Assembly: GCA_018433675.1 (NCBI GenBank)
Contig: JAHDQS010000029.1
Span: 62,001-126,000, forward strand
Source of the DNA: Clostridia bacterium
GTDB taxonomy: Bacteria; Bacillota; Peptococcia; DRI-13; SM3-B62
DNA length: 64,000 bases
Direction: 5' to 3'
Positions 14,160 to 63,947 of the stretch are shown here, one piece after another; the stretch's first letter is position 1, and the number at the start of each line of letters is the position of its first letter. The notes beneath the pieces were generated by a model. The model did no database searches and was not told the origin of the DNA. It saw only the letters and a list, made by a program, of their open reading frames with translations. The translations under genes were made by a program, and so were the position numbers.

Positions 14160-14160
14160 A

Positions 14161-14187: not shown

Positions 14188-14265
14188 CACTATCGGAAAG
14201 TATATTTCTATCGGAAGATAGAATAAGTGCAACTGTATAAGTGCAGCTAAGGAGTGGATATTTTT

Positions 14266-15003: not shown

Positions 15004-15224
15004 TTATTTATTCTCCTTTACCGCCGGAAATAATATGGGGTAATTCAGAACAAGGGATTTTTGATATAAAGGAAGAAATCATTAACGGTCAACCTGTGCA
15101 AGTTATGGTGACAGCAGATAATTGTGTTAGATTAGAACGTATCCTAGGTACTGATCCTGCCGTTTATCTTGACAACACTTTTCAACCGGGGAATCTATTG
15201 TCGTACAAGGTTAAATTAGAATAA
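15000..15224 (+). CDS. ylzJ: YlzJ-like protein with a non-canonical ATA start
   Basis: A 74-residue frame beginning [14 protein letters not shown] and containing [35 protein letters not shown]. It matches my recollection of B. subtilis YlzJ (MILYTTMPQEIVF, then a STDPQDF and YTPGQ region), and it sits in the same place between tepA and spoIIIE. Function is unknown. No ATG, GTG or TTG precedes the conserved N-terminus; the codon aligned to Met is ATA at 15000, eight bases after GAGGGGG, overlapping the tepA stop. The first canonical start in frame (GTG at 15096) would remove the conserved half. Family membership fairly sure, start codon inferred. Confidence 0.82.
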
Positions 15225-15316
15225 CGAGTCATTTTTAAATATTTTATAGTTGCAGCTCAGAAATCCATTGCTCGGACGTCCCAGTCATAGTAAACTAATT
15301 ATGGTGGGGTGAATGA

Positions 15317-17554: not shown

Positions 17555-17576
17555 AAAGAGGAAAATGAAGGATTGT

Positions 17577-18620
17577 ATGGAAAATACTATTATGGCTCAT
17601 GAGGCTTTGAATATGCAAGAACCGCTGTTTGTGGATTTGCGCTCCCCTGCAGAATTTCTGGAAGCAAATATCCCAGGGTCCGTTAACTTGCCTTTACTTG
17701 AAAACGAGGAAAGGGCTATTGTTGGAACCATTTACAAAAAGGGCTTAACCCAAGAAGCTTTTGATAAAGGTTTTTCTATAATTGCTCCGAAATTACCTGA
17801 AATGTATGAGAAGATAAAAGAAATCAGCCATAAAAAAAACATCGTTTTATATTGCTGGCGAGGCGGTATGCGCAGTCAGTCAATGTCTAAGCTTTTAGAT
17901 ATTTTGGGAATCAAACATTTTTTGTTGCAAGGTGGTTATAAAGGTTTTCGTAAGTTAGTTGTTTCTTATTTCTCAGAGCCTCTTAAACAGCAATTTATCG
18001 TTTTAGACGGTCTTACCGGCGTAGGAAAAACAGAAATCATTAAAAGACTGCGTAAAGAAGGGCTGCCGGCTCTTGACCTTGAAGAACTGGCTAACAATAG
18101 AGGCTCGGTATTTGGACACATTGGGCAATCTGTTTCCCCTTCACAAAAACAATTTGAAGCCAGATTGTTTTTGGAGTTGCTGAAATACAAAAATGAAAGC
18201 CACATTGTAGTCGAATGTGAAAGTAAAAGGATTGGGTCTGTTACTTTACCGGAAACTTTTTTTCAGGCGATGCAGGACGGTAAGAATGTTTTAGTTTATG
18301 ATACCTTGGATAACAGAATCAAACGTTTGATTTTGACATATCTGGATGGTAATGCGCTCATTCCTTCAACAGATATGGAATTACTAAAAGATGCGGTTTG
18401 TAATTTAAAAAAACGATTAGGTCATAAAAGAGTTAATTATTTGATACAATTATTAACTGAGGGTAATACGGATGAATTTGTTCGCACGCTGTTGCTTGAC
18501 TATTACGATCCGATGTATAAATACCCTCCAGGTCCATCACAGGACTATGAGGTGAATCTAAATGCTCAAAACATGGCAAGGACGACAGCAGTACTGAAAG
18601 AACTGTTGTCGAAACAATAA
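17577..18620 (+). CDS. mnmH: tRNA 2-selenouridine synthase
   Basis: MnmH (SelU) converts geranylated or 2-thiouridine at tRNA position 34 to 2-selenouridine using selenophosphate. The rhodanese domain (about 5-125) carries the catalytic Cys in LYCWRGGMRSQSM near 93, and the second half carries a P-loop, LDGLTGVGKTEII near 145. At 347 residues it is typical. ATG 17577 or 17565 could be the start; longer versions overlap ftsK. Its presence implies the cell makes selenophosphate, although selD is not in this window. It seems inserted between spoIIIE and the rodZ-like gene. Confidence 0.93.
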   Translation: MENTIMAHEALNMQEPLFVDLRSPAEFLEANIPGSVNLPLLENEERAIVGTIYKKGLTQEAFDKGFSIIAPKLPEMYEKIKEISHKKNIVLYCWRGGMRSQSMSKLLDILGIKHFLLQGGYKGFRKLVVSYFSEPLKQQFIVLDGLTGVGKTEIIKRLRKEGLPALDLEELANNRGSVFGHIGQSVSPSQKQFEARLFLELLKYKNESHIVVECESKRIGSVTLPETFFQAMQDGKNVLVYDTLDNRIKRLILTYLDGNALIPSTDMELLKDAVCNLKKRLGHKRVNYLIQLLTEGNTDEFVRTLLLDYYDPMYKYPPGPSQDYEVNLNAQNMARTTAVLKELLSKQ

Positions 18621-18646
18621 ATATATCATAAAGGGAGGTGGAAACA

Positions 18647-19411
18647 TTGGGAATTGGCGATACTCTTAAAAAAGCGCGTTTAGAAAAAGGAATTTCCCAT
18701 GCGGAAATAGAAAAAATCACAAAGATAAGAACACGCTATCTTACCTCAATGGAAAACGAACAATGGGATCAATTCCCCGGCAGGGTCTATTTAAGGGGTT
18801 TTTTGCGGACGTACAGTCGCCAGCTTGGCTTGAACGATGATGAAATTGTCACCGCTTTTGATGAATTGCAAATAAAAGAAGCCAAGACAGAACCCCTTCC
18901 GGAGAAAATAGAAATCCCCGGCAAGCCACGTAAAAAACTGGGTATTATCCTTGCCGTTATTGCAATTGTGTTGTTAGTTGCCCTACAGTTCGTATACAAA
19001 AACTATTTCTACCACGTAATTCCTGAAAATAATCCTTCAGTGGGCCAAACGGAAAATGGCGAATCAACTACGCCTGAAATTGAGGATGTTCAGAATCCTG
19101 AAGAGGTCGAAAATGAAACCGGCGTAGGGGAGGAAGTACCGGAGATAATTGAATCGATTACCTTCAAAATTGTTGTAAATAGCAAATGCTGGGCTTCAAT
19201 CAGTAGCGGTTCGAGACTCTTATACGAAGGTACGTTGAACAGAGGCGACGAAAGAACCTTCAGCGACTTAAAGCGCGTTTCGTTTCACCTTGGAAATGCC
19301 GGAGGAGCAGAGGTGTTCTTAAACGATGAAAGTCTGGGAGTGCTAGGGGGTATTGGCGATATCGTACGTAAAACCTATTTGTTAGAAGATAATGAAATAA
19401 CTGAAAGGTAG
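18647..19411 (+). CDS. RodZ/YmfM-like helix-turn-helix membrane protein
   Basis: A single-pass protein of 254 residues: N-terminal HTH_25 domain (IGDTLKKARLEKGISHAEIEKITKIRTRYLTSM split over residues 2-35; RVYLRGFLRTYSRQLGL follows), a membrane helix about 104-122, an acidic Glu/Pro-rich spacer, and a C-terminal DUF4115-type beta domain (KIVVNSKCWASISSG onward). RodZ links MreB to the elongation machinery. Start is TTG at 18647, eight bases after AAGGGAGG; the upstream GTG is part of that SD. In Bacillus the homologue ymfM also lies just before pgsA. Confidence 0.86.
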   Translation: MGIGDTLKKARLEKGISHAEIEKITKIRTRYLTSMENEQWDQFPGRVYLRGFLRTYSRQLGLNDDEIVTAFDELQIKEAKTEPLPEKIEIPGKPRKKLGIILAVIAIVLLVALQFVYKNYFYHVIPENNPSVGQTENGESTTPEIEDVQNPEEVENETGVGEEVPEIIESITFKIVVNSKCWASISSGSRLLYEGTLNRGDERTFSDLKRVSFHLGNAGGAEVFLNDESLGVLGGIGDIVRKTYLLEDNEITER

Positions 19412-19431
19412 GCAGAACGTTAAGCTTGGCT

Positions 19432-19460
19432 TTGACACGGTTTGCGACGTATTATATACT
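19432..19460 (+). promoter_or_regulatory. Promoter of rimO
   Basis: TTGACA (19432-19437), 17-base spacer, TATACT (19455-19460). rimO starts 46 bases after the -10. Confidence 0.85.
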
Positions 19461-19505
19461 ATTAGCGATATGTAACCAGATTACCGAAAAAGACGGAGGA
19501 TGCGG

Positions 19506-20873
19506 ATGTCAAAGTCCTTTCATATAGTCACCCTCGGCTGCCCCAAGAATATAGTCGACAGTAAACAAATATACGGTTATTTAGTTTCTTTAGGGTTTGT
19601 GCCTGAGAAAAGGGTAGAACTTGCGAATACTATTGTGGTAAATACTTGCGGTTTTATTCTCGATGCTAAACAAGAATCTATTGAAGAGATACTCAGACTG
19701 TCACAATGGAAGGCACGAGGGAAATGCCAATATTTAATTGCAGCAGGATGTCTTGTACAAAAATATGCCGAGGAACTTAAAAAGGAAATCCCTGAAATAG
19801 ATGCGTATCTAGGCACTGGAAGTATTCACCGCTTACCGGAGCTGATAAGTGAATTGCATGAACAAAAAATTAACAGGCCAATCATTAAATTAGGTCCCCC
19901 TGATGATTTTTTGTATAATGAAAAATTCAGTGGAATTAGTACCGTGCCCGAGTCTGCAGCACATTATGCTTACATCAAAATAGCAGAGGGTTGCGATAAC
20001 AGGTGCTCGTACTGCGTAATACCTTCTCTACGCGGTGCGTATAGAAGCCGTACGATCGAGAATATTGTCGCGGAGGTTAGTTTACTGGCAAGCAAAGGTA
20101 TGAAAGAGGCTATTCTTGTCGCTCAGGATACTACAAATTATGGCATGGATATCTATGGTAAACATATGCTGAGTCCCCTCATAAGAAAACTCTCAGACAT
20201 ATCCGAATTAAAGTGGATAAGACTTTTGTATTGTTATCCTAACCATATTAATGACGAATTAATAAAGACCATCAAAGAAGAAGATAAAGTATGTAAGTAT
20301 CTTGATATTCCTCTACAGCATATTGCAGACAACACTTTAAAAAAAATGGGCAGACCGTTTTTAAAAAATGATATTATAAGACTATTGGATAAGATAAAAA
20401 AACAGTTACCGGAAGTAGTTTTACGTACAACCTTTATCGTTGGTTTTCCCGGAGAAACTGAAGAGGATTTCCAGGAACTTCTTGCCTTTATTCGCGAAGT
20501 TGAATTTGATCGTGCCGGTTTCTTCACTTACTCCCGGGAACCGGACACCAAGGCATATTATTTGCCGGACCAGGTTAAAGAGCAAGAAAAAGAAAGAAGA
20601 CTTTTTTTGGCTTCTTCCTTACAAAAAGAAATTATGGCAAAAAAGCAGGAAAAATTTCTTAACAAAACAATAAAAGTTATCGTGGATGGACCAAGCTCCG
20701 ACTGTAATGAGCAATGGGAAGGCAGGACAGCGGGAGATGCTCCTGAAATAGACGGTTTAGTTTATTTTAATCCGCAAAAAAGTTTAGAACCAGGTAATTT
20801 TATCAAGCTCAGGGTTACTCATTGTCAAGAATTCGAATTAATAGGAGAGATAGTTGATGAATCTCGCCAATAA
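19506..20873 (+). CDS. rimO: Ribosomal protein S12 methylthiotransferase
   Basis: RimO methylthiolates the conserved Asp of ribosomal protein S12 using two 4Fe-4S clusters. The N-terminal UPF0004 domain begins HIVTLGCPKNIVDSK and contains the cluster cysteines in NTCGF and AAGCLVQKY. The radical-SAM CxxxCxxC is in EGCDNRCSYCVIP near 157, and a TRAM domain ends the protein. GCPKN and the TRAM end separate it from MiaB, which is encoded at 47.4 kb. ATG 19506 is chosen because the first ATG (19500) abuts the GGAGG. Confidence 0.95.
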   Translation: MSKSFHIVTLGCPKNIVDSKQIYGYLVSLGFVPEKRVELANTIVVNTCGFILDAKQESIEEILRLSQWKARGKCQYLIAAGCLVQKYAEELKKEIPEIDAYLGTGSIHRLPELISELHEQKINRPIIKLGPPDDFLYNEKFSGISTVPESAAHYAYIKIAEGCDNRCSYCVIPSLRGAYRSRTIENIVAEVSLLASKGMKEAILVAQDTTNYGMDIYGKHMLSPLIRKLSDISELKWIRLLYCYPNHINDELIKTIKEEDKVCKYLDIPLQHIADNTLKKMGRPFLKNDIIRLLDKIKKQLPEVVLRTTFIVGFPGETEEDFQELLAFIREVEFDRAGFFTYSREPDTKAYYLPDQVKEQEKERRLFLASSLQKEIMAKKQEKFLNKTIKVIVDGPSSDCNEQWEGRTAGDAPEIDGLVYFNPQKSLEPGNFIKLRVTHCQEFELIGEIVDESRQ

Positions 20874-21393
20874 GCTCACGTTATCAAGAATATTTCTTGT
20901 TCCGGTTTTTATGTTTGTTCTCTTGACCCGTATTAGTTTCGGAGAATACATAGCTGCAGCAATATTTATTATCGCCGCCAGTACAGACGGGTTAGACGGC
21001 TATATTGCCCGTAAACGCAAAGAGGTCACGAACCTGGGAAAATTAATGGACCCTCTGGCCGACAAACTACTTATATCCGCAGCACTTATTTCCCTTGTCG
21101 AATTGAAAGCTGTTTCAGCGTGGATAGCGGTAGTAATAATCGGTAGGGAATTTTTCGTTACGGGTCTACGTGCTGTTGTAGCTTCAGAAGGAGTAGTAAT
21201 TGCTGCCAGTAAACTGGGCAAGATTAAGACAATCAGCCAAATCGTGGCCATATCGGCCTTGCTTTTGAATGATTTCTTACGGAGCCTTCTGAATATTGAA
21301 TTCGGCAAATACGCCATTTATGTAGCAATGCTGTTTACCGTATGGTCCGGTATTGACTATTTTTACAAAGCCAGAAAGTCAACCAGGTTGTGA
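20857..21393 (+). CDS. pgsA: CDP-diacylglycerol-glycerol-3-phosphate 3-phosphatidyltransferase
   Basis: PgsA makes phosphatidylglycerol phosphate in the membrane. The 178 residues carry the CDP-alcohol phosphotransferase signature from DGLDGYIARKRK through NLGKLMDPLADK (about 45-70), with all aspartates in place, and several membrane helices follow. Start is ATG 20857, seven bases after AGGAGAG; it overlaps rimO by 17 bases. The proximity of pgsA to cinA-recA is common in Firmicutes. Confidence 0.95.
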   Translation: MNLANKLTLSRIFLVPVFMFVLLTRISFGEYIAAAIFIIAASTDGLDGYIARKRKEVTNLGKLMDPLADKLLISAALISLVELKAVSAWIAVVIIGREFFVTGLRAVVASEGVVIAASKLGKIKTISQIVAISALLLNDFLRSLLNIEFGKYAIYVAMLFTVWSGIDYFYKARKSTRL

Positions 21394-21418
21394 ATCCCGT
21401 AGCGCTGCGGGATTTTTT
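21393..21418 (+). terminator. Intrinsic terminator after pgsA
   Basis: ATCCCG (21394-21399) pairs with CGGGAT (21408-21413) and runs into TTTTTT. It ends the rimO-pgsA transcript. Confidence 0.85.
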
Positions 21419-21452
21419 CCATCCTTTTGCTAAGGAAATACCTCATTCCCTG

Positions 21453-21461
21453 TGATATAAT
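21453..21461 (+). promoter_or_regulatory. Extended -10 promoter of the 21.5 kb membrane gene
   Basis: TGATATAAT, the TGn extension plus a perfect TATAAT, with no recognisable -35 at the right distance. It lies just past the pgsA terminator and 25 bases before the next start codon. Confidence 0.55.
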
Positions 21462-21485
21462 GTGGCGCAGAGAGAGGTGTTGAGT

Positions 21486-22043
21486 GTGGATAAGATAAAA
21501 AAAACATTGACAACCCTGATTTCAGGTCTTGTCATTTTTGTTGTCTTAGCCGGAGCAACCGGCTTTTATAATAAAACCTTTTTACGGGCTCCTTTAGAAG
21601 ATGCGGTGCAAAAAATGCCGGGCATTGAGTATTTTGAATATCAAAGCGCAAATAACCGGAAAAAGGCAACTGTACAATTCAACGTAAGGAGTAATTTAAA
21701 ATCTGTATTTTATTTGTTTTTGGACAAGCTTGAAGGAAAAACCAATAGTAGAAATCCTGAAATCACAGTGGAAATAAGGAATCAGCGGAATCCTGAACTC
21801 GCTCTTTTTTTAAAAAAAGCAAATCTTTTCTTGTATGAAGCCATAGATACAGGTGAGCTTTCAAAGTTGCCTGCCAGGCTCGATGATATCTCTGATGGTC
21901 AGAATATTGTTTACGATATTGAAATTGACAATAATTACATTTTTCTCACAGCCAATAAGGAAGATGATACTGCTCACCTCGTTATCTGTAAAGAAAATGG
22001 TACTTTACAGATCATTAATACCATGGGGGGTGATTATCTATGA
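21486..22043 (+). CDS. Membrane-anchored extracytoplasmic protein paired with FtsH-like protease
   Basis: I do not recognise a family. The 185 residues have one N-terminal membrane helix (about 9-27, TLISGLVIFVVLAGATGF), then an outward-facing domain of mixed helices and strands with no cysteines before the last 20 residues. Start is GTG 21486, eight bases after AGAGAGGTG; a TTG at 21480 and a GTG at 21462 are in frame but too close to or ahead of the SD. The end overlaps the FtsH-like gene by four bases (ATGA), so the two are very likely translated together and may act together. Confidence 0.75.
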   Translation: MDKIKKTLTTLISGLVIFVVLAGATGFYNKTFLRAPLEDAVQKMPGIEYFEYQSANNRKKATVQFNVRSNLKSVFYLFLDKLEGKTNSRNPEITVEIRNQRNPELALFLKKANLFLYEAIDTGELSKLPARLDDISDGQNIVYDIEIDNNYIFLTANKEDDTAHLVICKENGTLQIINTMGGDYL

Positions 22044-23536
22044 TTGGACGTGAGGCTATTATAGGTGCAATTATCGGTGGCACAGCATATTTAGTATATC
22101 AAGGATTTGATATCACACCGCTTGTCCTGTTTGCCGCATTCGGTCTTGGCTTGTATATCATCACAAAAAAAAGAGGTCTACTAAAGCTGGACTCCCATCA
22201 AAAGATTGTTGCAGACAAAAAGTTCAAGTTTGAGGATATAGGTGGACTGGAGGTCGCAAAGCAGGAGCTCAAGGAAGCCTTAGAATTTCTGCTGGAGTCA
22301 GAAAAGATACACAAGATGGGGATAAGACCTTTAAAGGGTATTCTTCTCACGGGTCCTCCCGGTACGGGTAAAACTCTTCTGGCCCGGGCAGCCGCAGGTT
22401 ATTCTGATGCTGTCTTTCTTACCGCATCAGGAAGTGAGTTTATTGAAATGTATGCAGGGGTTGGTGCACAACGTGTCAGGAGTTTGTTTAAATCCGCACG
22501 GGAAATGGCCAAAAAACAAAAAAGGGATAAAGCAATAATTTTTATCGACGAAATCGAGGTTCTCGGCGGAAAGAGAGGCAGTAACTCAAGCCATCTCGAA
22601 TATGATCAAACTCTTAATCAATTACTAGTGGAAATGGATGGGCTGACTAATGAACGTGCAACCCAGGTTCTGTTGATTGCCGCAACAAACAGAGCCGATC
22701 TTCTTGATCCGGCTCTCCTGAGGCCAGGAAGGTTCGACAGACAGGTCAGAGTCGATCTGCCGGATAAAGAAGGCAGACTGGCTATTTTAAAGCTTCACGG
22801 CAAGAATAAACCCCTTGCTGATGATACGAGACTTGAAGAAATAGCAGGAGGAACCTACGGTTTTTCGGGAGCTCATTTAGAAAGCCTAATGAACGAGGCA
22901 GCAATACTTGCCTTAAGAGACAGAAGTTTAATGATACAGCAAGCGCATCTTACGGAAGCAATTGATAAGGTAATTATGGGTGAAAAACTTGACCATCAAG
23001 CAAATCAAGAAACACTGCGTCGTGTTGCCGTCCATGAGGCCGGACATGCTGTGGTAAGCGAGGTTTTAGAGCCTGGATCTGTTGAACAGATAACTGTAAC
23101 ATCACGGGGCGATGCTTTAGGGTATGTCCGTCACAGTCAATCTGAAGATACGCAATTGCTTACAAAATCCTCATTAGAGAATAAGATAATCATCTTTTTG
23201 GCCGGAGCTGTCAGTGAAGAATTATTCTTAGGAGAGAAAAGCACAGGAGCCATTAATGATTTTCAAAAGGCTATGAATCTGGCTGAAAGGATAATAAACG
23301 CTGGGCTTTCAAGGTTAGGTATTGCTTCTAAGGAGAATGTGCCGGAAAAGGAATTCCATCACGTTTGTCGTGAAATCATGCAAAACCTGGAATTCAAGGC
23401 AGAAGAAATCCTTACTGGAAAAAGAGACATTCATGAAAGGATAGTAAAGGAGTTAATTACTCGAGAAAAGTTGAATGGACCAGAACTCAGGCAATTACTT
23501 GAGACAAGCCAGGACAAGGCAGCTATGTCAGCATAG
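22040..23536 (+). CDS. Short FtsH-type AAA protease with minimal extracytoplasmic part
   Basis: A 498-residue AAA+ ATPase fused to an M41 zinc peptidase. Visible parts are two adjacent membrane helices (about 5-21 and 26-42), Walker A GPPGTGKT at 105-112, Walker B IIFIDE ending at 171, the SRH NRADLLDPALLRPGRFD near 217-233, HEAGH at 332-336 and the third zinc ligand in TGAINDFQKA. Ordinary FtsH has about 70 residues between the two helices and 600 or more in total; here that domain is missing. It is not the canonical ftsH by length or position. The preceding gene encodes a membrane-anchored outer domain. Confidence 0.88.
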   Translation: MIGREAIIGAIIGGTAYLVYQGFDITPLVLFAAFGLGLYIITKKRGLLKLDSHQKIVADKKFKFEDIGGLEVAKQELKEALEFLLESEKIHKMGIRPLKGILLTGPPGTGKTLLARAAAGYSDAVFLTASGSEFIEMYAGVGAQRVRSLFKSAREMAKKQKRDKAIIFIDEIEVLGGKRGSNSSHLEYDQTLNQLLVEMDGLTNERATQVLLIAATNRADLLDPALLRPGRFDRQVRVDLPDKEGRLAILKLHGKNKPLADDTRLEEIAGGTYGFSGAHLESLMNEAAILALRDRSLMIQQAHLTEAIDKVIMGEKLDHQANQETLRRVAVHEAGHAVVSEVLEPGSVEQITVTSRGDALGYVRHSQSEDTQLLTKSSLENKIIIFLAGAVSEELFLGEKSTGAINDFQKAMNLAERIINAGLSRLGIASKENVPEKEFHHVCREIMQNLEFKAEEILTGKRDIHERIVKELITREKLNGPELRQLLETSQDKAAMSA

Positions 23537-23542
23537 CTGCCT
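23517..23542 (+). terminator. Hairpin at the end of the FtsH-like gene
   Basis: A perfect 11-bp stem, AGGCAGCTATG with CATAGCTGCCT, around TCAG, spanning the stop codon. The T-rich stretch follows only after about ten bases, so termination efficiency is uncertain. Confidence 0.55.
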
Positions 23543-23543
23543 G

Positions 23544-23572
23544 TTGATTTATATCCCTTTTTTCTGTATAAT
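23544..23572 (+). promoter_or_regulatory. Promoter of cinA
   Basis: TTGATT (23544-23549), 17 bases, perfect TATAAT (23567-23572), 32 bases before the cinA start. Confidence 0.7.
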
Positions 23573-23603
23573 GATGCAAGCGAAATCCAGGGGGATAGAC
23601 ATT

Positions 23604-24908
23604 ATGAATGCAGAAATAATTTCAGTAGGAACGGAGCTATTACTCGGTCAAATAGTAAATACCAATGCAAAATACCTTTCGGAAAAAATGGCAGAAATAG
23701 GTGTTGACGTATACTACCATACCACTGTGGGAGACAATAAAGAAAGATTTAAGAAAGCATTACAAATTGCCGAAAAAAGAGCAGATTTAGTAATCACAAC
23801 GGGAGGGCTTGGTCCCACAGGCGACGACATTACGAAGGAAGTCGTTGCAGAATACCTTGATTTGCCGCTTTTTGTTTCTGAGGATGATGTTTCGTGTTTT
23901 AAGCGGTACTTAGAAGAAAGAAACCGCGAATGGGTGGAATCCAACTTGCGCCAATTTATGTATGCTAAAGGCACTGAGATACTAAAAAATGATCTTGGTT
24001 TTGCTTTAGGAATGGCTGCAAAAAAGGATAACAGCTCGTATATCCTATTGCCGGGCCCACCCGGCGAGATGAAATGCATGTTTGAAAGATACGCGCTTCC
24101 GTGGATCAATAAAAATCTACTTGATTACACGAGGATAACCCTATTTTCTCGTGTTTTGCGCTTCGCAGGTATTCCCGAATCAAAGCTGGAATACGATTTA
24201 AAGGATTTGTTCGATGAACAGCAAGACCCAACCTTGGCTCTTTTAATTAAACCTGGGGAGATAACATTACGCTTATCAGCAAAGGCTCAAAATCAAGAAG
24301 ATTTTAACGCCAAAATCGCACCATTGCTATCCGAGATTAAAAACAGAGTCGGGAAATACCTCGTTAAAGAAGACGAAGTACCTTTGCTGGAAATTTTGGC
24401 AAAACGGTTAACAGAACAGAAACTTACAATCAGCACAGCAGAATCATGCACAGGAGGGATGGTAAGCGGTCATTTTACTTCAATACCGGGTTCGTCTAGT
24501 TTTTATCTAGGCTCGATAATTGCTTACAGTAATGAATTGAAGATCAGGCTTTTAGATATTCCTTACGATATGTTGGAAAATCATGGCGCAGTCAGTAAAC
24601 AAGTAGCATCTGCTATGGCCGAGAATGTCAGAAGGATTACCGGCAGCTCGTTGGGAATAGCTGTCACCGGAATCGCAGGCCCGGACGGTGCAACAGCAAA
24701 AAAAGAAGTGGGCTTGGTATATATCGCTTTAAACGCCCCCGGATTTGCAGTGACACAAAAATTCAATTTCACAGGCGATCGTGAAAATGTCAGAATGAGT
24801 TGCGTTAATTCCGTACAGCACATTCTGTGGCAATACCTTAAAAATGCGCCTAAGATAGGCAGCACAAATATATATAATGAAGGAGCTAATAATGAGCATC
24901 GAATTTAA
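23604..24908 (+). CDS. cinA: CinA: competence/damage-inducible protein, NMN amidase family
   Basis: A 434-residue two-domain protein. The N-terminal MoaB/MogA-like domain (IISVGTELLLGQIVNTN; GGLGPTGDDITKE near 73) is associated with ADP-ribose pyrophosphatase activity, and the C-terminal CinA domain (ISTAESCTGGMVSG near 280; GIAVTGIAGPDG) is the PncC-type nicotinamide-nucleotide amidase. Start is ATG 23604; the longer frame upstream runs into the previous gene's hairpin and promoter. The cinA-recA neighbourhood is widespread in Firmicutes; here a helicase gene lies between. Confidence 0.95.
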   Translation: MNAEIISVGTELLLGQIVNTNAKYLSEKMAEIGVDVYYHTTVGDNKERFKKALQIAEKRADLVITTGGLGPTGDDITKEVVAEYLDLPLFVSEDDVSCFKRYLEERNREWVESNLRQFMYAKGTEILKNDLGFALGMAAKKDNSSYILLPGPPGEMKCMFERYALPWINKNLLDYTRITLFSRVLRFAGIPESKLEYDLKDLFDEQQDPTLALLIKPGEITLRLSAKAQNQEDFNAKIAPLLSEIKNRVGKYLVKEDEVPLLEILAKRLTEQKLTISTAESCTGGMVSGHFTSIPGSSSFYLGSIIAYSNELKIRLLDIPYDMLENHGAVSKQVASAMAENVRRITGSSLGIAVTGIAGPDGATAKKEVGLVYIALNAPGFAVTQKFNFTGDRENVRMSCVNSVQHILWQYLKNAPKIGSTNIYNEGANNEHRI

Positions 24909-26481
24909 GGACTTATCAATAACAAAAAAAGTAATGGCGGCTATATCCGAGATGGGCTTCGAAGAACCCACCCCGATTCAGGCTAAAGCTATTCCTTTAA
25001 TCATGAACGGGAATGATGTAATCGGACAGGCTCAGACCGGGACAGGTAAAACTGCCGCATTTGGTATTCCTATTGCAGAAGGAATCGATAGTAAGGTTTT
25101 ACAGGTACAATCCCTGATAGTCACTCCGACAAGAGAACTCGCCATCCAAGTTGCAGAAGAAATGGCAAAGATAGGGAAGCAAAAGAGGATTAGGGTACTG
25201 CCAATTTACGGCGGTCAACCCATTGACAGGCAAATACGTTCGCTTAAAAAAGGTGTTCATGTTGCAATAGGGACCCCTGGGCGCCTTATTGACCATTTAC
25301 GCAGGAGAACCCTTAATTTAGATAAGGTAAAAATTGTCGTGCTTGATGAAGCTGATGAAATGCTGGATATGGGTTTTGTGGAAGATATCGAATCTATTCT
25401 CAAATGTACAGATGAAGGCAGACAAACCCTGCTTTTTTCAGCGACTATGCCATTTCCTATACGTCAGCTGGCCGAAAAATACATGAAAAAACCGCACTTA
25501 GTTACAATCGACAAGGAAGCAATCACTGTTCCTCTTATCCAGCAGTATTATTATGAAATATTGACCGGCACCAAAACAGATGCCTTGTGTCGTATTCTCG
25601 ACTTCGAAGAATATAACTCCGTCATTATTTTTTGCAGAACAAAAAGAAGCGTTGATGAATTATCCGCAACATTACAAACCAGAGGTTATTTCGCCGAGGG
25701 TTTGCATGGTGACATGACACAGGCCCAAAGGGATAAAACTATGAACAGTTTCAGACGGGAAGAGGTGGAGATCCTGGTTGCTACTGATGTGGCTGCAAGA
25801 GGACTCGATATCGGCGGTGTCAGCCACGTTATTAATTATGATATTCCGCAGGACCCTGAGTCCTATGTGCACCGTATTGGCAGAACAGGACGTGCGGGTA
25901 AAGAAGGTAAGGCTTTGACTTTGATAATTCCTAAGGAGTATCGTCAGTTGAGGATGATCGAAAGGTTAATCAAAGCACGCATTGATAAAGCCAGTTTACC
26001 AACCTTTAAGGACGTTCTGGAGCATAAGCAAAACATGACATATAACACCATCTGCGAAATAATCAAGATGAATGAGATGGATGACCAAAAGAAAATCGTA
26101 GAAGACCTAATGAAGGAGTTTGATCTTTTAGATATAGCTTCGGCTGCTATCAAGCACGCTTTTGTGCAAAATGGTCTTGAATATGATGACCGTCCGGAAA
26201 ACAATGAACTTACTAATACAGGGGCAAAAAACGGCATGGTAAGACTATTTATAACCATAGGCAGGCAACAGAATATCAAGCCTATTGATCTCGTAAACAA
26301 TATTAGTCGGGAAACCGGCATTAATGAACGTTCTATTGGGGACATCAGAATTTATGATAAGTTTTCTTTTCTTGAGGTCCCCGAGGATGTCGCTTCCCGT
26401 GTGATTAATATTATGGATAGAAATGATATCAACGGAAAAAGAATTTCTGTTCAACCGGCTCGGGCCAGGCGCGAATTTTAG
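24892..26481 (+). CDS. DEAD-box RNA helicase with DbpA-type RNA-binding domain
   Basis: A 529-residue ATP-dependent RNA helicase. Motifs in order are the Q-motif (FEEPTPIQAKAI), AQTGTGKT, PTRELA, TPGRLIDHL, DEAD, SAT and HRIGRTGRAG. Residues after about 445 form a DbpA/RRM-like domain (MVRLFITIGRQQNIKP, then NERSIGDIRIYD and ending NGKRISVQPARA), the module that directs DbpA/YxiN to structured rRNA. Related names would be CshA, DeaD or DbpA; the exact orthologue is not settled. ATG 24892 sits six bases after AAGGAG and overlaps cinA by 17 bases. Confidence 0.93.
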   Translation: MSIEFKDLSITKKVMAAISEMGFEEPTPIQAKAIPLIMNGNDVIGQAQTGTGKTAAFGIPIAEGIDSKVLQVQSLIVTPTRELAIQVAEEMAKIGKQKRIRVLPIYGGQPIDRQIRSLKKGVHVAIGTPGRLIDHLRRRTLNLDKVKIVVLDEADEMLDMGFVEDIESILKCTDEGRQTLLFSATMPFPIRQLAEKYMKKPHLVTIDKEAITVPLIQQYYYEILTGTKTDALCRILDFEEYNSVIIFCRTKRSVDELSATLQTRGYFAEGLHGDMTQAQRDKTMNSFRREEVEILVATDVAARGLDIGGVSHVINYDIPQDPESYVHRIGRTGRAGKEGKALTLIIPKEYRQLRMIERLIKARIDKASLPTFKDVLEHKQNMTYNTICEIIKMNEMDDQKKIVEDLMKEFDLLDIASAAIKHAFVQNGLEYDDRPENNELTNTGAKNGMVRLFITIGRQQNIKPIDLVNNISRETGINERSIGDIRIYDKFSFLEVPEDVASRVINIMDRNDINGKRISVQPARARREF

Positions 26482-26499
26482 TAAATATATTTTTGTGGA

Positions 26500-26528
26500 T
26501 TGACAAACCATTCCCAAAATTGTACAAT
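26500..26528 (+). promoter_or_regulatory. recA promoter
   Basis: Perfect TTGACA (26500-26505), 17 bases, TACAAT (26523-26528). Confidence 0.87.
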
Positions 26529-26536
26529 TACATCAT

Positions 26537-26550
26537 CGAACAAACGTTTT
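26537..26550 (+). promoter_or_regulatory. LexA box (SOS operator) of recA
   Basis: CGAACAAACGTTTT fits the Gram-positive LexA site GAAC-N4-GTTY. It lies a few bases after the predicted start of transcription, so LexA would block initiation or clearance. Confidence 0.82.
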
Positions 26551-26569
26551 GGGTATAAGGAGGTTTCTC

Positions 26570-27580
26570 ATGTCTGATAAGAAAAAAGCGCTTGAAATTG
26601 CTCTGGCAAATATTGAGAAAAGTTTTGGCAAAGGTTCTGTAATGCGTTTAGGAGAAGCGTCTTCTAAGCTGCATGTTGAAGTAATTTCCACCGGAGTCCT
26701 ATCATTGGATATGGCCCTTGGCGTAGGGGGTGTCCCGCGAGGTAGGGTAATTGAAATATATGGTCCTGAATCCTCCGGTAAGACAACGGTTGCTCTCCAT
26801 ATAATAGCCGAAGCACAAAGGAAAGGTGGGGAGGCGGCATTTATTGATGCCGAACATGCCCTTGATCCGGTATATGCCGGAAAACTGGGAGTGGATGTAG
26901 ATAAATTATTAGTCTCTCAGCCGGACACAGGAGAACAAGCCCTTGAAATCGCTGAAGCATTGGTCAGAAGCGGAGCAATTGACGTTGTCGTTATCGATTC
27001 TGTTGCGGCTTTAGTACCTCGTGCGGAAATTGAGGGGGAAATGGGAGACTCACACGTAGGTTTGCAGGCACGTCTGATGTCACAAGCCCTGCGGAAATTG
27101 ACAGGCGCTATCAGTAAATCTCACACAACAGCCATCTTTATTAACCAAATAAGAGAAAAAGTAGGCATCATGTTTGGCAACCCGGAAACCACGTCAGGGG
27201 GAAGGGCTTTAAAATTTTATTCCTCAGTACGTATCGATGTCCGAAAAATAGAAACACTTAAGCAGGGTTCAGATATGGTTGGCAACCGCACCCGGGCAAA
27301 AATTGTTAAAAACAAGGTCGCACCACCTTTTAAGATGGCAGAATTTGATATCATGTACGGTGAAGGCATATCAAGAGAGGGCGACATTCTGGACTTGGCG
27401 GCTGATGTTGATATCATCAAAAAAAGCGGAACTTGGTATTCGTACAATGACGAACGTTTGGGCCAAGGTAAGGAAAATGTAAAACAATATTTAAAAGAAC
27501 ATCCCGAGCTCACATCAGAGCTAGATGCCAAGGTGCGGGAACACTTTTTTGGGTCCCCGAAGGACGTTGAAGTCAAGTGA
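26570..27580 (+). CDS. recA: Recombinase RecA
   Basis: RecA forms the nucleoprotein filament for homologous recombination and triggers LexA self-cleavage. The 336 residues contain [16 protein letters not shown], Walker A GPESSGKT near 64, the DAEHALDP motif, [11 protein letters not shown], and the loop L2 region [20 protein letters not shown]. No intein. The start ATG follows a GGAGG and an upstream in-frame frame extension is non-coding. recX overlaps its stop codon. Regulated by the SOS box just upstream. Confidence 0.98.
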
Positions 27581-28023
27581 TTGATGAGAAAAAACTGTTA
27601 AGCTTTGCGTTAAAAAAGCTTGCCAGAAGGCAATACAGTGTTTACGAGATGGACAGACTTATGCGGTATAAAGGCTATGAAGGAAAAGAGATAGAAACGG
27701 TGATAAAAAAACTGCTGAGTCTTGGTTATCTTAATGATAAAGCCTTAGCGGAAAGCCTGCTTGAACTTTATACCCTCCATAAGCCTCATGGAAAAATGAA
27801 GTTAAAAGCAAAACTCTTGCAAAAGGGAATACCTGAAGATATTATTTCATTACAAATGGAAAAATTCGATCCAGCCATGGAAAGAGAAACCGCGTTAACG
27901 GCGGCAAGAAGGTTTTTGATAAAGAATGAGCCCGATCAGCAAAAGCTGGCGAGATTTCTTGCCCGAAAAGGGTTTTCTCAGGAGGTTATTGAGGGAACAG
28001 TTTGGGCTTTGCTCCAATCTTGA
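27577..28023 (+). CDS. recX: Regulatory protein RecX
   Basis: RecX caps RecA filaments and limits their growth. The 148 residues show three-helix repeats typical of the family: [20 protein letters not shown], then [20 protein letters not shown], and a last repeat ending [20 protein letters not shown]. Start is GTG 27577, overlapping the recA stop by four bases, with only a weak upstream SD (AAGGACG), which suggests translational coupling to recA and lower output. Confidence 0.92.
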
Positions 28024-36003: not shown

Positions 36004-37470
<1,467 letters not shown>

Positions 37471-37503
37471 CTATTTAATAGTTTATTAACATGTCAATTA
37501 TTT

Positions 37504-37531
37504 AACAGAGGAGCAATCCTCTGTTTTTTTA
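37504..37531 (+). terminator. Intrinsic terminator after guaB
   Basis: AACAGAGGA pairs with TCCTCTGTT around GCAA, followed by TTTTTT. Confidence 0.92.
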
Positions 37532-37597
37532 TTGTTGTATATGGCTAAAATATTTTACATTATTTGATAAATTGGTCTATATTTTGTCTTATATGTA

Positions 37598-37606
37598 TGT
37601 TATAAT
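37598..37606 (+). promoter_or_regulatory. Extended -10 promoter of the Tad-like cluster
   Basis: TGTTATAAT, followed by an AT-rich leader of about 95 bases rich in alternating TATA. No convincing -35 is present. The AT-rich interval 37532-37690 is otherwise without a recognisable feature. Confidence 0.5.
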
Positions 37607-37703
37607 AAGTAAAACATTGTATATATATGCTATTACTTGTATATATTACTATCTTTTCGTGTGTGAAAGATATTTGAAATAGAGAGAGGAGGAAAGAATA
37701 GTC

Positions 37704-38555
37704 GTGATTGTTCCACTTATAAATACACTGCTCGTCGGAGTTTGGTTTGTTTTTGCCGTACTTTATCTGAATCCGGCAGCACAAAAGTCTTTTACCTTAT
37801 TCTCAAACCGAGATTCTTTGGTAAGAACACCCTACAGATTTAAAATAAAAAACAAATTACCCCTCATCACTTCCGCCAGCTGGGTATCTGCCATATTGAT
37901 ATCCATCATGACACAAAATATCTTTCTTTTAGCGGCAGGGTTGGCCGCAGGAGCCTATTTGCCTGGGTTTTTAATAGAAAAAAAGAGAAGAGGGCAAAGA
38001 ATAAGGATTATCACAAAGCTCGTTAGTCCTTTAAGGTTACTGATATCACGTTTGCCGGATCAGAACAACATTACAAAAGCCATTGAACTTACCCGCAATG
38101 AAATCATAGATGATGAGATTCGCAGCATTTTTTCAAATTATCTCAAGGATGTTAATATTTGCGGAAACGTACATGATGCCCTGCTGAATATGAAAGACTC
38201 AGTAAGCCTAAGCAAGTTTGATGTTTTTATTGAATATCTGCTGCAAACACACTATGAGGGGTTTACAAAAGAATCGCTTAATGCTTTAAGTAAATCCGTC
38301 GAAGCAATAGAGTTTGATTTAAGAGCTATTGAGAAGGTCAACGAAAAAAGCCGCGCTAAAAAAAGAAATCTCTATACGGCCTTGGTAGTATCCTGGATGT
38401 TTCCCGTTATTCTTTCTTTTGCCAATACAGGTCAACGCAATGTTTATCTTCATACTACAGCCGGAAAGATTCTAATTCTTTTCTATGTTGTCGGATCCCT
38501 GTTCGTTTATCTCAAGGGTGAAGAATACCTCACCTTAAACCTTGATGAACTTTAA
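37704..38555 (+). CDS. TadB-like type II secretion F-domain membrane protein
   Basis: A 283-residue protein resembling the TadB inner-membrane platform of tight-adherence pili. It has helices near 5-25, 55-85 and a closing pair near 230-270 around a cytoplasmic helical domain (about 90-215, with LLQTHYEGFTKESLNALSKSVEAIEFD). Family similarity is by topology and position rather than a sharp motif. GTG 37704 is used; GGAGG lies 11 bases upstream. It overlaps the first in-frame bases of the next gene's leader. Confidence 0.65.
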   Translation: MIVPLINTLLVGVWFVFAVLYLNPAAQKSFTLFSNRDSLVRTPYRFKIKNKLPLITSASWVSAILISIMTQNIFLLAAGLAAGAYLPGFLIEKKRRGQRIRIITKLVSPLRLLISRLPDQNNITKAIELTRNEIIDDEIRSIFSNYLKDVNICGNVHDALLNMKDSVSLSKFDVFIEYLLQTHYEGFTKESLNALSKSVEAIEFDLRAIEKVNEKSRAKKRNLYTALVVSWMFPVILSFANTGQRNVYLHTTAGKILILFYVVGSLFVYLKGEEYLTLNLDEL

Positions 38556-38568
38556 GGAGTTGGTATCA

Positions 38569-39474
38569 TTGCTGATGATAGTCTGGTCATACATAATGCC
38601 TTTCATCCTTGCCGTTTGTCTAACAGGCCTTTTGGCAAAAAAACTACTGCCTGACAAAAAAGCACATCAAGCGATAATGAAGGCTAGGCAGGCAATTATG
38701 TCCGAAGCGGAATTAGAACTTGCCGCTGAGGGACAAGCAATAAAAACCGTATCGGCGCTATTAAGAACAATACGTAAGTATGCAGAATTAGACGATCAAA
38801 TAATTGTAGAAATGGGAAATATGCTGCGCTTAATGGGTTCGTTGAATAAGCCGGAAAAGGAGCTGGCACGCTATATCGTCCGCGCCATAGGTGGTGCTGT
38901 TCCAATTATCGTTGTTCCGGTTTTAACAGGCTTTGAAGGCTATCTTCTTCTGTATCCGCTTGCCGTGGTTATTTTGGTGCTCCAACAATACAAGAGCCTA
39001 AAAAAACAGTTTAATCAGTGGCAAAAGGATATAATTGTCGATCTGCCCGCTTTAATCGATAAACTGAGGATCAGTTTTTCCTGTGGTAAAGATTATGTTT
39101 CGGCATTTATACAGGTTCGTGAACTATCGGGTTTGAGGATGAAAACCGTTATTGACAACTTAATAAATGATTTACAATACTTAAGACCTGCCTTAGCTCT
39201 TGATTCTTTCGCGGAATCCTTTAACCTGCCTGTTGTCAATAAGTTCACCTCTGCCGTTAAAATAGCTATTGAACATGGTTATGAGGCCGCAGAAAGCTAT
39301 TTTGCCGCAATTGAGGATGACATTTCGGAAGTTAGGAAGGTTGCTATAGAGGAGAAGACAAAATCAAAACCGGAAAAGGTCGTTCTGCTCTATTTGATTA
39401 TTATCAGTTTGTCTGTAGGTTCATTACTGATTAAAGGATGGGAAATATTTAACGGGTTAAATACCATAATGTGA
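38569..39474 (+). CDS. TadC-like type II secretion F-domain membrane protein
   Basis: A 301-residue second platform-like protein: an N-terminal helix, a charged cytoplasmic segment, two helices near 110-150, the T2SSF-type domain with DLPALIDKLRISFSCGKDYVSAFIQVRE (near 163-190) and a final helix near 275-292. The invariant-looking LPALID-LRISFSCG stretch is what marks the family. Start is TTG 38569, nine bases after AAGGAG; the earlier in-frame ATG overlaps tadB and precedes that SD. It forms a pair with the gene before it. Confidence 0.72.
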   Translation: MLMIVWSYIMPFILAVCLTGLLAKKLLPDKKAHQAIMKARQAIMSEAELELAAEGQAIKTVSALLRTIRKYAELDDQIIVEMGNMLRLMGSLNKPEKELARYIVRAIGGAVPIIVVPVLTGFEGYLLLYPLAVVILVLQQYKSLKKQFNQWQKDIIVDLPALIDKLRISFSCGKDYVSAFIQVRELSGLRMKTVIDNLINDLQYLRPALALDSFAESFNLPVVNKFTSAVKIAIEHGYEAAESYFAAIEDDISEVRKVAIEEKTKSKPEKVVLLYLIIISLSVGSLLIKGWEIFNGLNTIM

Positions 39475-39489
39475 AACGGGGGAGAAAAA

Positions 39490-39657
39490 ATGATTAACAT
39501 GAAAAACCTTATCACCGACGAGAGGGGTGAAATGCTGGGAACTGTGGGATGGATGGCAATTGTTGCGACAATTCTGGTGCTGGTTCACGGACTCATTGCA
39601 GGATGGCTGCCGGGCTTCATTCAGAGGATCTTTAGCCAAATGGATGCCCTTGTTTAG
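39490..39657 (+). CDS. Short Flp-like single-helix peptide
   Basis: A 55-residue peptide: polar N-terminus MKNLITDERGEMLGTVG, a hydrophobic helix WMAIVATILVLVHGLIAG and an amphipathic end PGFIQRIFSQMDALV. Size, layout and position between TadC- and CpaB-like genes suggest an Flp-type pilin or pseudopilin. However, the usual Glu at +5 after the processing Gly is not obvious, so cleavage by a prepilin peptidase is uncertain. GGGGGAG lies eight bases before the ATG. Confidence 0.7.
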   Translation: MINMKNLITDERGEMLGTVGWMAIVATILVLVHGLIAGWLPGFIQRIFSQMDALV

Positions 39658-39705
39658 GTTAGATATGAGTGTAGCTGTATATTAGAAAGAGGGAGGTAGT
39701 GAAAA

Positions 39706-40443
39706 TTGCGCAGATTGACAAGGATAAGGATATTTAAGACCGCCTTGCTCATGGCCACCTTTCTAATGGTGTTCACTGTTACTTTTATGATAAACAGAAC
39801 ATATATCAGAAAACACACCGAATTAGTCGAAGTTGTGGTTGCCGCCAATAAGCTTTCACCATATTCATTGGTAACTAGAGACGATCTCACTATGTCTAAA
39901 AGACCGCGTTCCGTTGTCGGCGCTGAAGCCGTTCGGGATTTAGAGTTTTTTGGCCCCGAAAAAAGCTACTACACAGAGGAGCTGGGATTTGGCAAGGGTG
40001 ATATTATATCCCAGGACCGCATTTTTGAAACGGAAACCTCAAAGCTAGGCCAAATCGTCAAACTGGCGAATGAGAACAAGATGCTATTATCTGTCAACAC
40101 TAACCTTGTCAGAAGCTGTGCAAATATGGTAACCGCAGGTACTTATGTTGATCTTATCGTTTATCTCGATGATAGAGAGAAGGAAGATAGTGACACTATT
40201 ATTAGCCCAGCGGAAGACGCTCGTCTTTCTAGCTTGTTAGTTGTTGCCACCAAGAATTCCGAAGCCTCTGGAATCGAAGAGGAGGGACGTAATGCTATTC
40301 CTGCCGTTGTTACCTTTGAATTAACAAGGGACAAGATGGATGTAGCAAAAGTATTGGTTAAATATAACGAGAAGGGCAGTATTTATCTTCTGCCAGTAGG
40401 CTACAGCGGAACAACTGACAAAGGATGTTTAGCGGGAATGTAA
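39706..40443 (+). CDS. CpaB/RcpC-like SAF-domain protein
   Basis: A 245-residue protein with an N-terminal membrane helix (about 11-29) and an extracytoplasmic part that begins with a SAF-type segment (VEVVVAANKLSPYSLVTRDDLTMSKRP near 42-68) and continues as a CpaB/RcpC-like beta domain. In Tad systems this protein helps assemble the outer part of the apparatus. Start is TTG 39706 behind GGGAGG. The operon is continuous from the TadB gene with gaps of 13-50 bases. Confidence 0.72.
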   Translation: MRRLTRIRIFKTALLMATFLMVFTVTFMINRTYIRKHTELVEVVVAANKLSPYSLVTRDDLTMSKRPRSVVGAEAVRDLEFFGPEKSYYTEELGFGKGDIISQDRIFETETSKLGQIVKLANENKMLLSVNTNLVRSCANMVTAGTYVDLIVYLDDREKEDSDTIISPAEDARLSSLLVVATKNSEASGIEEEGRNAIPAVVTFELTRDKMDVAKVLVKYNEKGSIYLLPVGYSGTTDKGCLAGM

Positions 40444-40461
40444 ATATGGGAGGTATGTATT

Positions 40462-40773
40462 ATGAAATGGAGAGTCAAAGAAGGGCAGATTGTTATTGCT
40501 GGAAGAATCGGAATGATTGAGAAAAAAAGCGACAGTATGTTTATTGTTTCCATTGCCAATAGGTTTAACAAAGATGATACCAAATGGGAGCATGTGGCTT
40601 TTGCCAGCCCCAGAAGCGGGGATGGCTATAAATACGCCGAACTAGCGGAAAAGCATATGGGTATTGGACAATATGTTACAGTTGTCTGCAATGAAAGAGA
40701 AAACGGAGATTACAAAAATCTCTACGCCACTGCTGTTGAATTGGGTCCAAAACCATCAAAAAACAAAGAATAG
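40462..40773 (+). CDS. Short SSB-like OB-fold protein
   Basis: A 103-residue protein that resembles the N-terminal OB domain of single-stranded-DNA-binding proteins: GRIGMIEKKSDSMFIVSIANRF as first strands, a Trp in DDTKWEHVAFASPR at the position of the SSB WH(V/R) motif, and LAEKHMGIGQYVTVVCNERE resembling the SSB KGxxVxVEG strand. It lacks the acidic C-terminal tail of true SSB. A DNA-binding partner in a Tad-like cluster is odd. Assignment is by pattern only. Confidence 0.62.
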   Translation: MKWRVKEGQIVIAGRIGMIEKKSDSMFIVSIANRFNKDDTKWEHVAFASPRSGDGYKYAELAEKHMGIGQYVTVVCNERENGDYKNLYATAVELGPKPSKNKE

Positions 40774-40823: not shown

Positions 40824-41651
40824 ATGCTTACAAAAGAACACTCCTTTTCAAAAAAGGAGGAATGCCTTATTTCTGTTTTAATACTTTCCAAGAAGAATTT
40901 GGCAAAATATCTCTTCGTTCTGGTTATAACAATAGTAGCCATCAGCATATTCAGTCCCTCTCTTAAACAAACAACACAAGAGGTTATTGCTGTTTTAGTC
41001 TCGGGGCAAAGACTTGTACCTATATATGCCGTAGAAACGGACGAAAAAGTTGTGGCCATTTCTTTTGACGCAGCTTGGGGCAGCACAAGGACCCAGGATA
41101 TATTAAAAACACTGGCTGAAAATGATATTAAAACAACTTTCTTTCTCACGAATATCTGGCTGAAAAAGTACCCTGAATTAGCCCGGCAAATTGTTGAGGA
41201 AGGCCACGAAGTTGCACTGCATTCAGCCTCACATCCGGATATGAGCAAACTGTCTGTCGACGAAATAAAAAAGGAACTACAGGATAACGAGACTATGATC
41301 AAGGAAATTACTGGCCAGTCCCCTGTGCTTTTCAGGCCCCCGTTTGGCGCGTATAATAACATACTTCTTAAGACCGCCGAGGATTTAAGCTTCATCACAG
41401 TACAATGGAGCATAGACTCACTTGATTGGAAGAACCTATCAGCAGATGAAATATATACACGAGTAACTGAAAGAATAACACCTGGGGCCATAGTTCTTTT
41501 CCACAATGATGGGAAAAACACGCCCCAAGCCTTGATCGCTATCTTAAATCATCTGAAAAATGATGGATATTCCGTTATTCCGATTTCACAGCTTTTACAT
41601 AAGGATAACTACTTTATCGACCATCAAGGACTTCAACGGCTCAAGGAGTAA
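40824..41651 (+). CDS. PdaB-like polysaccharide deacetylase
   Basis: A 275-residue NodB/CE4 protein with an N-terminal membrane helix (about 29-45). Motif 1 is SFDAAWG, the variant found in PdaB-type sporulation deacetylases, where the second Asp of the TFDDG motif is replaced. Motif 2 HEVALHSASHPDM and motif 3 RPPFGAYN are present, with FHNDG later. The ATG at 40824 has no SD; the strong AGGAGG at 40855-40860 instead points to ATT at 40869, eight bases on, giving a protein 15 residues shorter. Follows the Tad-like cluster, possibly unrelated to it. Confidence 0.85.
   Translation: MLTKEHSFSKKEECLISVLILSKKNLAKYLFVLVITIVAISIFSPSLKQTTQEVIAVLVSGQRLVPIYAVETDEKVVAISFDAAWGSTRTQDILKTLAENDIKTTFFLTNIWLKKYPELARQIVEEGHEVALHSASHPDMSKLSVDEIKKELQDNETMIKEITGQSPVLFRPPFGAYNNILLKTAEDLSFITVQWSIDSLDWKNLSADEIYTRVTERITPGAIVLFHNDGKNTPQALIAILNHLKNDGYSVIPISQLLHKDNYFIDHQGLQRLKE
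40841..40860 (+). promoter_or_regulatory. Hairpin enclosing the SD of the PdaB-like gene
   Basis: CTCCTTTT (40841-40848) pairs perfectly with AAAAGGAG (40852-40859) around CAA, burying an AGGAGG. It could limit translation unless opened by an upstream ribosome. Confidence 0.5.
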
Positions 41652-63576: not shown

Positions 63577-63696
63577 ACTGTAGATACAAAAAAGTTTTCA
63601 AACGCAAACCGTTTTTGGCCTCGATAATTTGATTGGTCAAAGGTGTTTATGTTTTAGACTTTTTGATCAATCTAATTGTAAAAGGAGGTTATTAAT

Positions 63697-63894
63697 ATGC
63701 AAGGTAAAGTAAAATGGTTTAACTCAGAAAAAGGTTATGGTTTTATCGAGTCTGAAGAAGGCGGCGACGTTTTCGTTCATTTCACCGCAATCCAGGGTGA
63801 AGGCTTTAAAACCCTCGACGAAGGACAAGACGTAACTTTTGATGTTGTCCAGGGCAACCGTGGACCGCAGGCAGAAAACGTAACTCGTGTCTAG
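63697..63894 (+). CDS. cspA: Cold-shock domain protein
   Basis: A 65-residue single cold-shock domain that binds single-stranded RNA or DNA and keeps mRNA unfolded. RNP1 is KGYGFIE (residues 13-19) and RNP2 VFVHF (26-30), with the opening [20 protein letters not shown] precedes the ATG. Names in Firmicutes (CspA-E) are not strictly orthologous, so the symbol is a family label. Confidence 0.96.
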
Positions 63895-63912
63895 TCACCA
63901 ATAAGAACCATG

Positions 63913-63947
63913 AAGGCCGGTCATTGCGACCGGCCTTTCCTTTTTTA
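63913..63947 (+). terminator. Intrinsic terminator after cspA
   Basis: AAGGCCGGTC pairs with GACCGGCCTT around ATTGC, followed by TCCTTTTTT. Confidence 0.93.

Follow-up and report, generated by a model that had tools for sequence, protein, structure and literature searches.

A Tad pilus gene cluster without an ATPase and its complement on the same contig of a Clostridia bacterium

Can a row of Tad pilus genes that includes neither an ATPase nor a prepilin peptidase belong to a complete machine? The question is raised by five consecutive plus-strand open reading frames, all of them real, at positions 37704–40773 of a 64,000-bp stretch (the window; positions 62001–126000 of contig JAHDQS010000029.1, here C42) of the Clostridia bacterium genome GCA_018433675.1 (G000). 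A sequence-only reading had seen here TadB-, TadC-, Flp- and CpaB-like genes in one operon, followed by a gene for a 103-aa protein resembling single-stranded DNA-binding protein (SSB), and had offered three explanations: a remnant, a conjugative or DNA-uptake apparatus, and a pilus working with an ATPase encoded at another locus. The closely packed row of genes is as described and so is its end, but the range given began at 37598, in upstream sequence. Borrowing of the ATPase is well supported, because the missing genes are present on the same contig and a second block there lacks exactly TadB, TadC, Flp and CpaB. We consider it probable (about 0.8) that the five genes are a displaced part of a single Tad pilus operon of the A type (DUF4320 type), denoted below by primed gene names, with the ATPase and the remaining genes encoded elsewhere on the contig.

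Complementary genes at two sites

The G000 genome has five T2SSE genes and five T2SSF genes that score above the thresholds of their families, and three prepilin peptidases. Two of the five T2SSE genes are located on C42, 42–48 kb downstream of the cluster, and one of these encodes a CpaF/TadA-type ATPase (CpaF'; T2SSE, 3.3e-33). It belongs to block A, about 47 kb downstream of the cluster, which consists of a LuxR/sigma-like helix-turn-helix gene followed by genes for TadZ' (265 aa), CpaF' (455 aa), a DUF4320 protein (145 aa; PF14208, 1.6e-11), a 140-aa protein, a protein with a copper amine oxidase N domain (CuAO) and a 447-aa protein. We infer that the DUF4320 protein is TadE-like and that the 140-aa protein is a TadG-like minor pilin. 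The genes that block A lacks, tadB, tadC, flp and cpaB, are exactly the four Tad genes of the cluster. After block A comes block B, a complete B-type set of Tad genes located 36 kb from the cluster, which comprises TadZ, CpaF, TadB, TadC, Flp, TadE, a TadG-like protein, CpaB, a 567-aa protein and TadV, named partly from family matches and otherwise by position and similarity. TadV is a prepilin peptidase (Peptidase_A24 match), and two further peptidase matches occur in the genome. The cluster itself contains no ATPase or peptidase gene, as the sequence-only reading had stated; cpaF and tadV genes, for which it had proposed to look elsewhere, are both found on C42. The 228-bp gap of block A holds no recognisable remnant of cpaB', and the sequence 5' of the cluster none of cpaF'. 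Further T2SSE and T2SSF genes on contigs C38 (61698–69531, with a peptidase gene also on this contig), C40 (51631–53341) and C16 suggest that this genome encodes at least one or two extra pilus systems of the Tad or type IV kind.

In chromosomes of related bacteria, the genes of the two sites form one operon. A TadC' search of 299 genomes of the phylum gave 43 matches at E ≤ 1e-3; the ten genomes that, besides G000 itself, matched at E < 1e-40 were all included in the neighbourhood comparison, and the 33 weaker matches fall outside it. Genes for TadB', TadC', Flp', the DUF4320 protein, the 140-aa protein and CpaB' were present in all ten neighbourhoods, and those for TadZ' and CpaF' in nine, the exception being G012, where the contig end cuts the locus at TadB'. 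The order is tadZ'-cpaF'-tadB'-tadC'-flp'-DUF4320-140-cpaB'. A CpaF' search in ten genomes, including G000, identified orthologues with 75–77% identity in four relatives of the same order (G003, G004, G005 and G010), whose loci are joined as far as the contigs reach. G004 keeps the standard order; in G003, cpaB' is located directly 3' of tadC', followed by the DUF4320 and CuAO genes, with a Flp-like sequence recognised by eye only in a gap and with 447-like and 140-like genes and the B-type operon on a second contig; the G010 locus is broken by the contig end after flp' and a DUF4320 start; and the A-type locus of G005 is cut inside tadC'. In every one of the 13 chromosomal loci outside the genus that cover both genes, cpaF' adjoins tadB'. 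The other genome of the genus, G001, has the cluster and the two blocks separate, in the same split layout as G000. Of the five-gene set, whose recurrence had been proposed as a check, the four Tad genes recur in joined operons and the split layout recurs in G001; none of the ten joined loci has the 103-aa gene. As to neighbouring genes, two order relatives carry 5' of the A-type operon a NusG-like gene (L101:5560–6045 and L104:9629–10114, the latter below the Pfam cut-off), possibly an operon-specific antiterminator, where the genus of G000 has the LuxR/sigma-like gene. In G001, CuAO-like and 447-like genes are present on both contig ends (L100:11569–14358 and L065:17442–19948), as if in a tandem duplicate.

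Insertion, selection and the split operon

The cluster is located between guaB and a polysaccharide deacetylase gene. In all nine order relatives, the deacetylase gene stands behind guaB with no Tad genes between them; the two matches are 93–288 bp apart in eight of these genomes and 886 bp apart in G006, which has one unrelated 273-aa reading frame there; in G000 the interval is 3353 bp. Because this adjacency is found in all nine relatives with a Tad-free interval, the cluster is a derived insertion, common to both genomes of the genus. The gene order of G003, with cpaB' beside tadC', hints at a way in which the genes could have been transferred as a single contiguous piece; duplication followed by complementary loss is equally possible. 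The guaB gene of G010 (L142, G010:C6:26460–27908) has one in-frame TAG in the matched stretch; either the gene is broken or the sequence is in error there.

All five reading frames of the cluster are open in both genomes of the genus. Ratios of nonsynonymous to synonymous substitution (dN/dS; Nei-Gojobori, G000 versus G001) were 0.20 for TadB', 0.12 for TadC', 0.095 for Flp', 0.27 for CpaB' and 0.42 for the 103-aa protein, the last value resting on few changes (dS 0.088), compared with 0.03–0.15 for five genes of block A and 0.08–0.11 for four of block B. Trees of 16 genomes were built separately from TadB', TadC' and CpaB' and from TadZ', CpaF', the DUF4320 protein and the 140-aa protein; both place G000 and G001 with G003, G004, G005 and G010, apart from G007, with supports of 64 and 69.

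The ancestral operon would have had the order of the joined loci and, as in the nearest relatives, would have been followed on its 3' side by genes for surface proteins resembling CuAO and CARDB and, beyond these, by a B-type Tad operon. In the genus of G000, tadB'-tadC'-flp'-cpaB' would have moved into the guaB–deacetylase interval, or been kept there after duplication and complementary loss, together with the 103-aa gene, whereas tadZ', cpaF', the DUF4320 gene and the 140-aa gene would have been left about 47 kb downstream beside the tadV-carrying B-type operon. The products of the two sites most likely act in trans as one machine, in which CpaF' would power the TadB'/TadC' platform and the platform would build a thin pilus on the cell surface from Flp' and the TadE-like subunits; CpaB' would be located outside the membrane. 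Several observations weigh against this reconstruction. The Flp-like protein reads EMLGTV after G13, which is not a canonical G/XXXXEY processing site; the B-type operon of the same locus encodes platform proteins with which CpaF' could, in principle, work; the evidence from the genus comes from two draft genomes, of which G001 has a record titled as a metagenome-assembled genome (MAG); and the deep branches of the trees are weak (22–69), with the position of the genus inside the order clade differing between them.

The reverse assignment, in which the cluster would provide alternative platform proteins and an alternative pilin for the B-type operon and not for cpaF', appears improbable. It would fit the position of block A directly 5' of block B in G000 and related genomes, as well as the presence of the 103-aa gene inside a B-type operon in G005, but elsewhere the platform genes are always paired with cpaF', and the B-type operon has TadB, TadC, Flp and CpaB of its own.

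The identification of the individual genes (Table 1) draws on different kinds of evidence. Two platform proteins are encoded at 37704–39474 by orthology and position: the sole Pfam match of TadB' is T2SSF at E = 0.096, below the family cut-off, whereas phmmer aligns it with the TadB' proteins of other loci at 7e-57 (L055), 1e-71 (L059) and 6e-90 (L101), and neither TadC' nor the Flp-like protein belongs to any Pfam family. We use the name Flp-like rather than Flp, as this protein lacks E at +5 as well as tyrosine at +6 of the processing site. CpaB' matches TIGR03177 (1.4e-15; 57.3 bits, under the cut-off of 71) and, above its cut-off, RcpC (PF16976, 8.8e-07). The genes are tightly packed: tadB' and tadC' overlap by 14 nt and the remaining gaps are 15, 48 and 18 nt. 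The promoter-like pair upstream of tadB' is weak, since a scan of the region gave 14 such sites against 9.2 expected. An Rfam scan of the window and the Tad loci found no riboswitch at the Tad genes. Among its matches elsewhere are a lysine riboswitch (window 10206–10385, 99.6 bits), a cspA thermoregulator (window 63591–63942, 79.2 bits against a threshold of 78) and an azaaromatic (yjdF) riboswitch (L012:18652–18753, at about 163.65 kb of C42; 99.6 bits).

Table 1. Features of the cluster and of the complementary site (window positions, unless prefixed C42)
Feature	Position	Strand	Remarks
guaB	36016–37470		name assigned from its sequence
Leader 3' of guaB, intergenic	37471–37703	+	hairpin, promoter-like pair, ribosome-binding site
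Terminator-like hairpin of guaB	37504–37525
Promoter-like pair upstream of tadB'	37554–37583		consensus match only
Ribosome-binding site GGAGG	immediately 5' of 37704
tadB'	37704–38555	+	283 aa; inner-membrane platform protein of A-type operon
tadC'	38542–39474	+	310 aa; second platform protein, by orthology and position
flp'-like	39490–39657	+	55 aa; small pilin, by orthology and position
cpaB'/RcpC	39706–40443	+	245 aa; TIGR03177, PF16976
103-aa gene	40462–40773	+	GGGAGG just 5'
Polysaccharide deacetylase gene	40824–41651
tadV	C42:138750–139040		prepilin peptidase
Block A	C42:146757–152909		tadZ', cpaF', DUF4320, 140-aa, CuAO-like and 447-aa genes
cpaF'	C42:150127–151494		ATPase, outside the cluster

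The 103-aa protein and the question of DNA transfer

The last gene of the cluster encodes a member of an orphan family that is bound to Tad genes in every genome where it was found. Relatives with 92% (G001) and 56% (G005) identity are both encoded among Tad genes, so the linkage that had been set beforehand as a test holds in all three genomes that carry the gene, but in two contexts, the G005 gene being located inside the B-type operon between genes for TadE and a 173-aa TadG-like protein. The protein is present in three of 100 relatives and in three of 46 genomes of the class. In 398 genomes of the phylum it matched its own genome and one false positive, an RpiR-type regulator of G236 (E = 0.0015); a pattern-based scan of genome contigs returned two loci, from MAGs of a Clostridia bacterium and of a member of the Peptococcaceae, in agreement with G001 and G005. 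No relatives were found in viral contigs, plasmids or phages. None of the families in Pfam, NCBIfam or PHROGs matched the protein significantly, nor did any PDB sequence, the best E-value there being 0.041 (Kelch-like proteins), or 0.93 with a profile.

The resemblance to SSB failed every sequence test. PF00436 gives no match even at E ≤ 10, a hidden Markov model of 26 SSBs from the order scores only 0.2–0.3 bits, the hhalign score against these SSBs was equalled by 13 of 50 column shuffles, and in global alignment the observed mean was reached by 141, 142 and 49 of 200 shuffles for the three relatives. The best hint came from a divergent SSB paralogue of G003, which aligns with the window protein at 30.8% identity over 52 aa (E = 0.20) and with its G001 relative at 28.8% (E = 0.043), but here too the observed maximum was reached by 81, 18 and 34 of 200 shuffles. 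AlphaFold2, run with the three sequences, produced two low-confidence models (predicted local distance difference test, pLDDT, 43.2 and 47.4) with strands, a helix and two strands, an order that could fit an OB fold; Foldseek searches with them gave no match at E ≤ 0.001, and the 50 best matches of each search include no SSB, which, with models of such low confidence, counts neither for nor against the fold. Because a profile of three sequences makes the SSB and OB tests weak, an OB fold is unproven but not disproved. No hydrophobic N-terminal stretch was seen in the sequence, and the protein is probably a cytoplasmic accessory or regulatory factor.

The A-type operon is found on plasmids as well. 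CpaF' matched 417 plasmid records at E ≤ 1e-20, of which the best five (33–41% identity), all from Paenibacillus, were compared: pY5S7-2, pAP1, pSb31l and two unnamed plasmids (L146–L150; operon at locus positions 13206–27762). A profile search identified a TadZ'-CpaF' fusion, TadB', TadC', the DUF4320 and 140-aa proteins, CpaB', CuAO and a 447-like protein in all five and Flp' in four. Upstream of the operon, three of the plasmids carry DUF87/TraG P-loop, M23 and FtsK/SpoIIIE genes (Pfam confirms TraG P-loop and FtsK_SpoIIIE in two of them and M23 in one, and the genes of the third are known by annotation only), and two carry genes for a type IV secretion system coupling protein and Replic_Relax (confirmed by Pfam for one). 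PLSDB classifies all five as non-mobilizable. The plasmid operon is possibly a conjugation-associated Tad pilus. The chromosomal A-type copies have housekeeping-like neighbours and, in the stretches read by eye, no recognisable conjugation genes; in the stretches read around the cluster and the two blocks, no relaxase, coupling protein or VirB4-like gene was recognised by eye, no family search of the whole contig or genome having been made. A conjugative or DNA-uptake apparatus, as had been proposed, is possible but unproven. We regard the plasmid link as a lead only, because five plasmids, all of a single genus, are a small sample, plasmids often carry conjugation genes, and the chromosomal neighbours are housekeeping-like.

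It is unlikely that the A-type machine moves DNA, by uptake or as a conjugative mating pilus, with the 103-aa protein binding single-stranded DNA at its base. Such a role would agree with the nearby conjugation-type genes on all five plasmids examined, with the presence of ComEC in G000 and with the competence pilus reported for Micrococcus luteus (PMC4322843), which takes two tad islands to make. However, ComEC is widespread among bacteria (10 of 14 control genomes), no sequence test gives the 103-aa protein SSB or OB similarity, its gene is absent from the five plasmid loci as well as from the ten joined chromosomal loci, and the chromosomal neighbours look housekeeping. A broader and quite speculative scenario, to which we give little credence, would make A-type Tad/DUF4320 a DNA-handling pilus module of Firmicutes plasmid conjugation that settled on Clostridia chromosomes and here gained a 103-aa subunit binding single-stranded DNA. 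Finally, a degenerating, functionless remnant of a second operon copy, which might account for the incomplete gene set and the displaced position, is hardly credible given five frames open in both genomes, dN/dS of 0.095–0.42 and the existence of the missing genes on the same contig.

Comparison with known systems

If the cluster is, as we think, the displaced half of a complete machine, it cautions against calling pilus clusters that seem to lack an ATPase remnants. The comparison defines a recurrent set, TadZ'-CpaF'-TadB'-TadC'-Flp'-DUF4320-140-CpaB'; our literature search found no paper naming DUF4320. Of most interest are the 103-aa orphan and the A-type module found on plasmids, whose link to conjugation-type genes raises the testable question of whether Tad pili take part in DNA transfer of monoderm bacteria.

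The 103-aa protein is similar in length to members of the SSB family (PF00436), and the strand order of its low-confidence models could suit an OB fold; unlike them, it has no match to the family profile, and G000 has one ordinary SSB, on contig C7. Gram-positive tad operons, several per genome in some organisms, were described by Imam et al. (2011; PMC3244431), including Flp-like proteins without tyrosine at +6. The system of G000 resembles the operons described there in having TadA/CpaF, TadB/TadC, Flp or Flp-like, TadE-like, RcpC/CpaB, TadZ and TadV components, and differs from them in its split over two sites, the lack of the canonical motif in Flp' and the extra 103-aa gene. In M. luteus, tad-1 and tad-2 are both involved in making one competence pilus (Angelov et al. 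2015; PMC4322843). Like the two sites here, they are separate, complementary clusters of one chromosome with the peptidase gene elsewhere. In contrast to G000, where platform and ATPase are encoded at different sites, each M. luteus cluster is reported there to have its own tadA, tadB and tadC, and the role in competence is a finding made in M. luteus. The operons of all five Paenibacillus plasmids have the same gene order as the joined chromosomal operons (tadZ'cpaF'-tadB'-tadC'-flp'-DUF4320-140-cpaB'-CuAO-CARDB) and differ from the split system of G000 in that they do not include the 103-aa gene, are joined, encode a TadZ'-CpaF' fusion and are located near conjugation-type genes.

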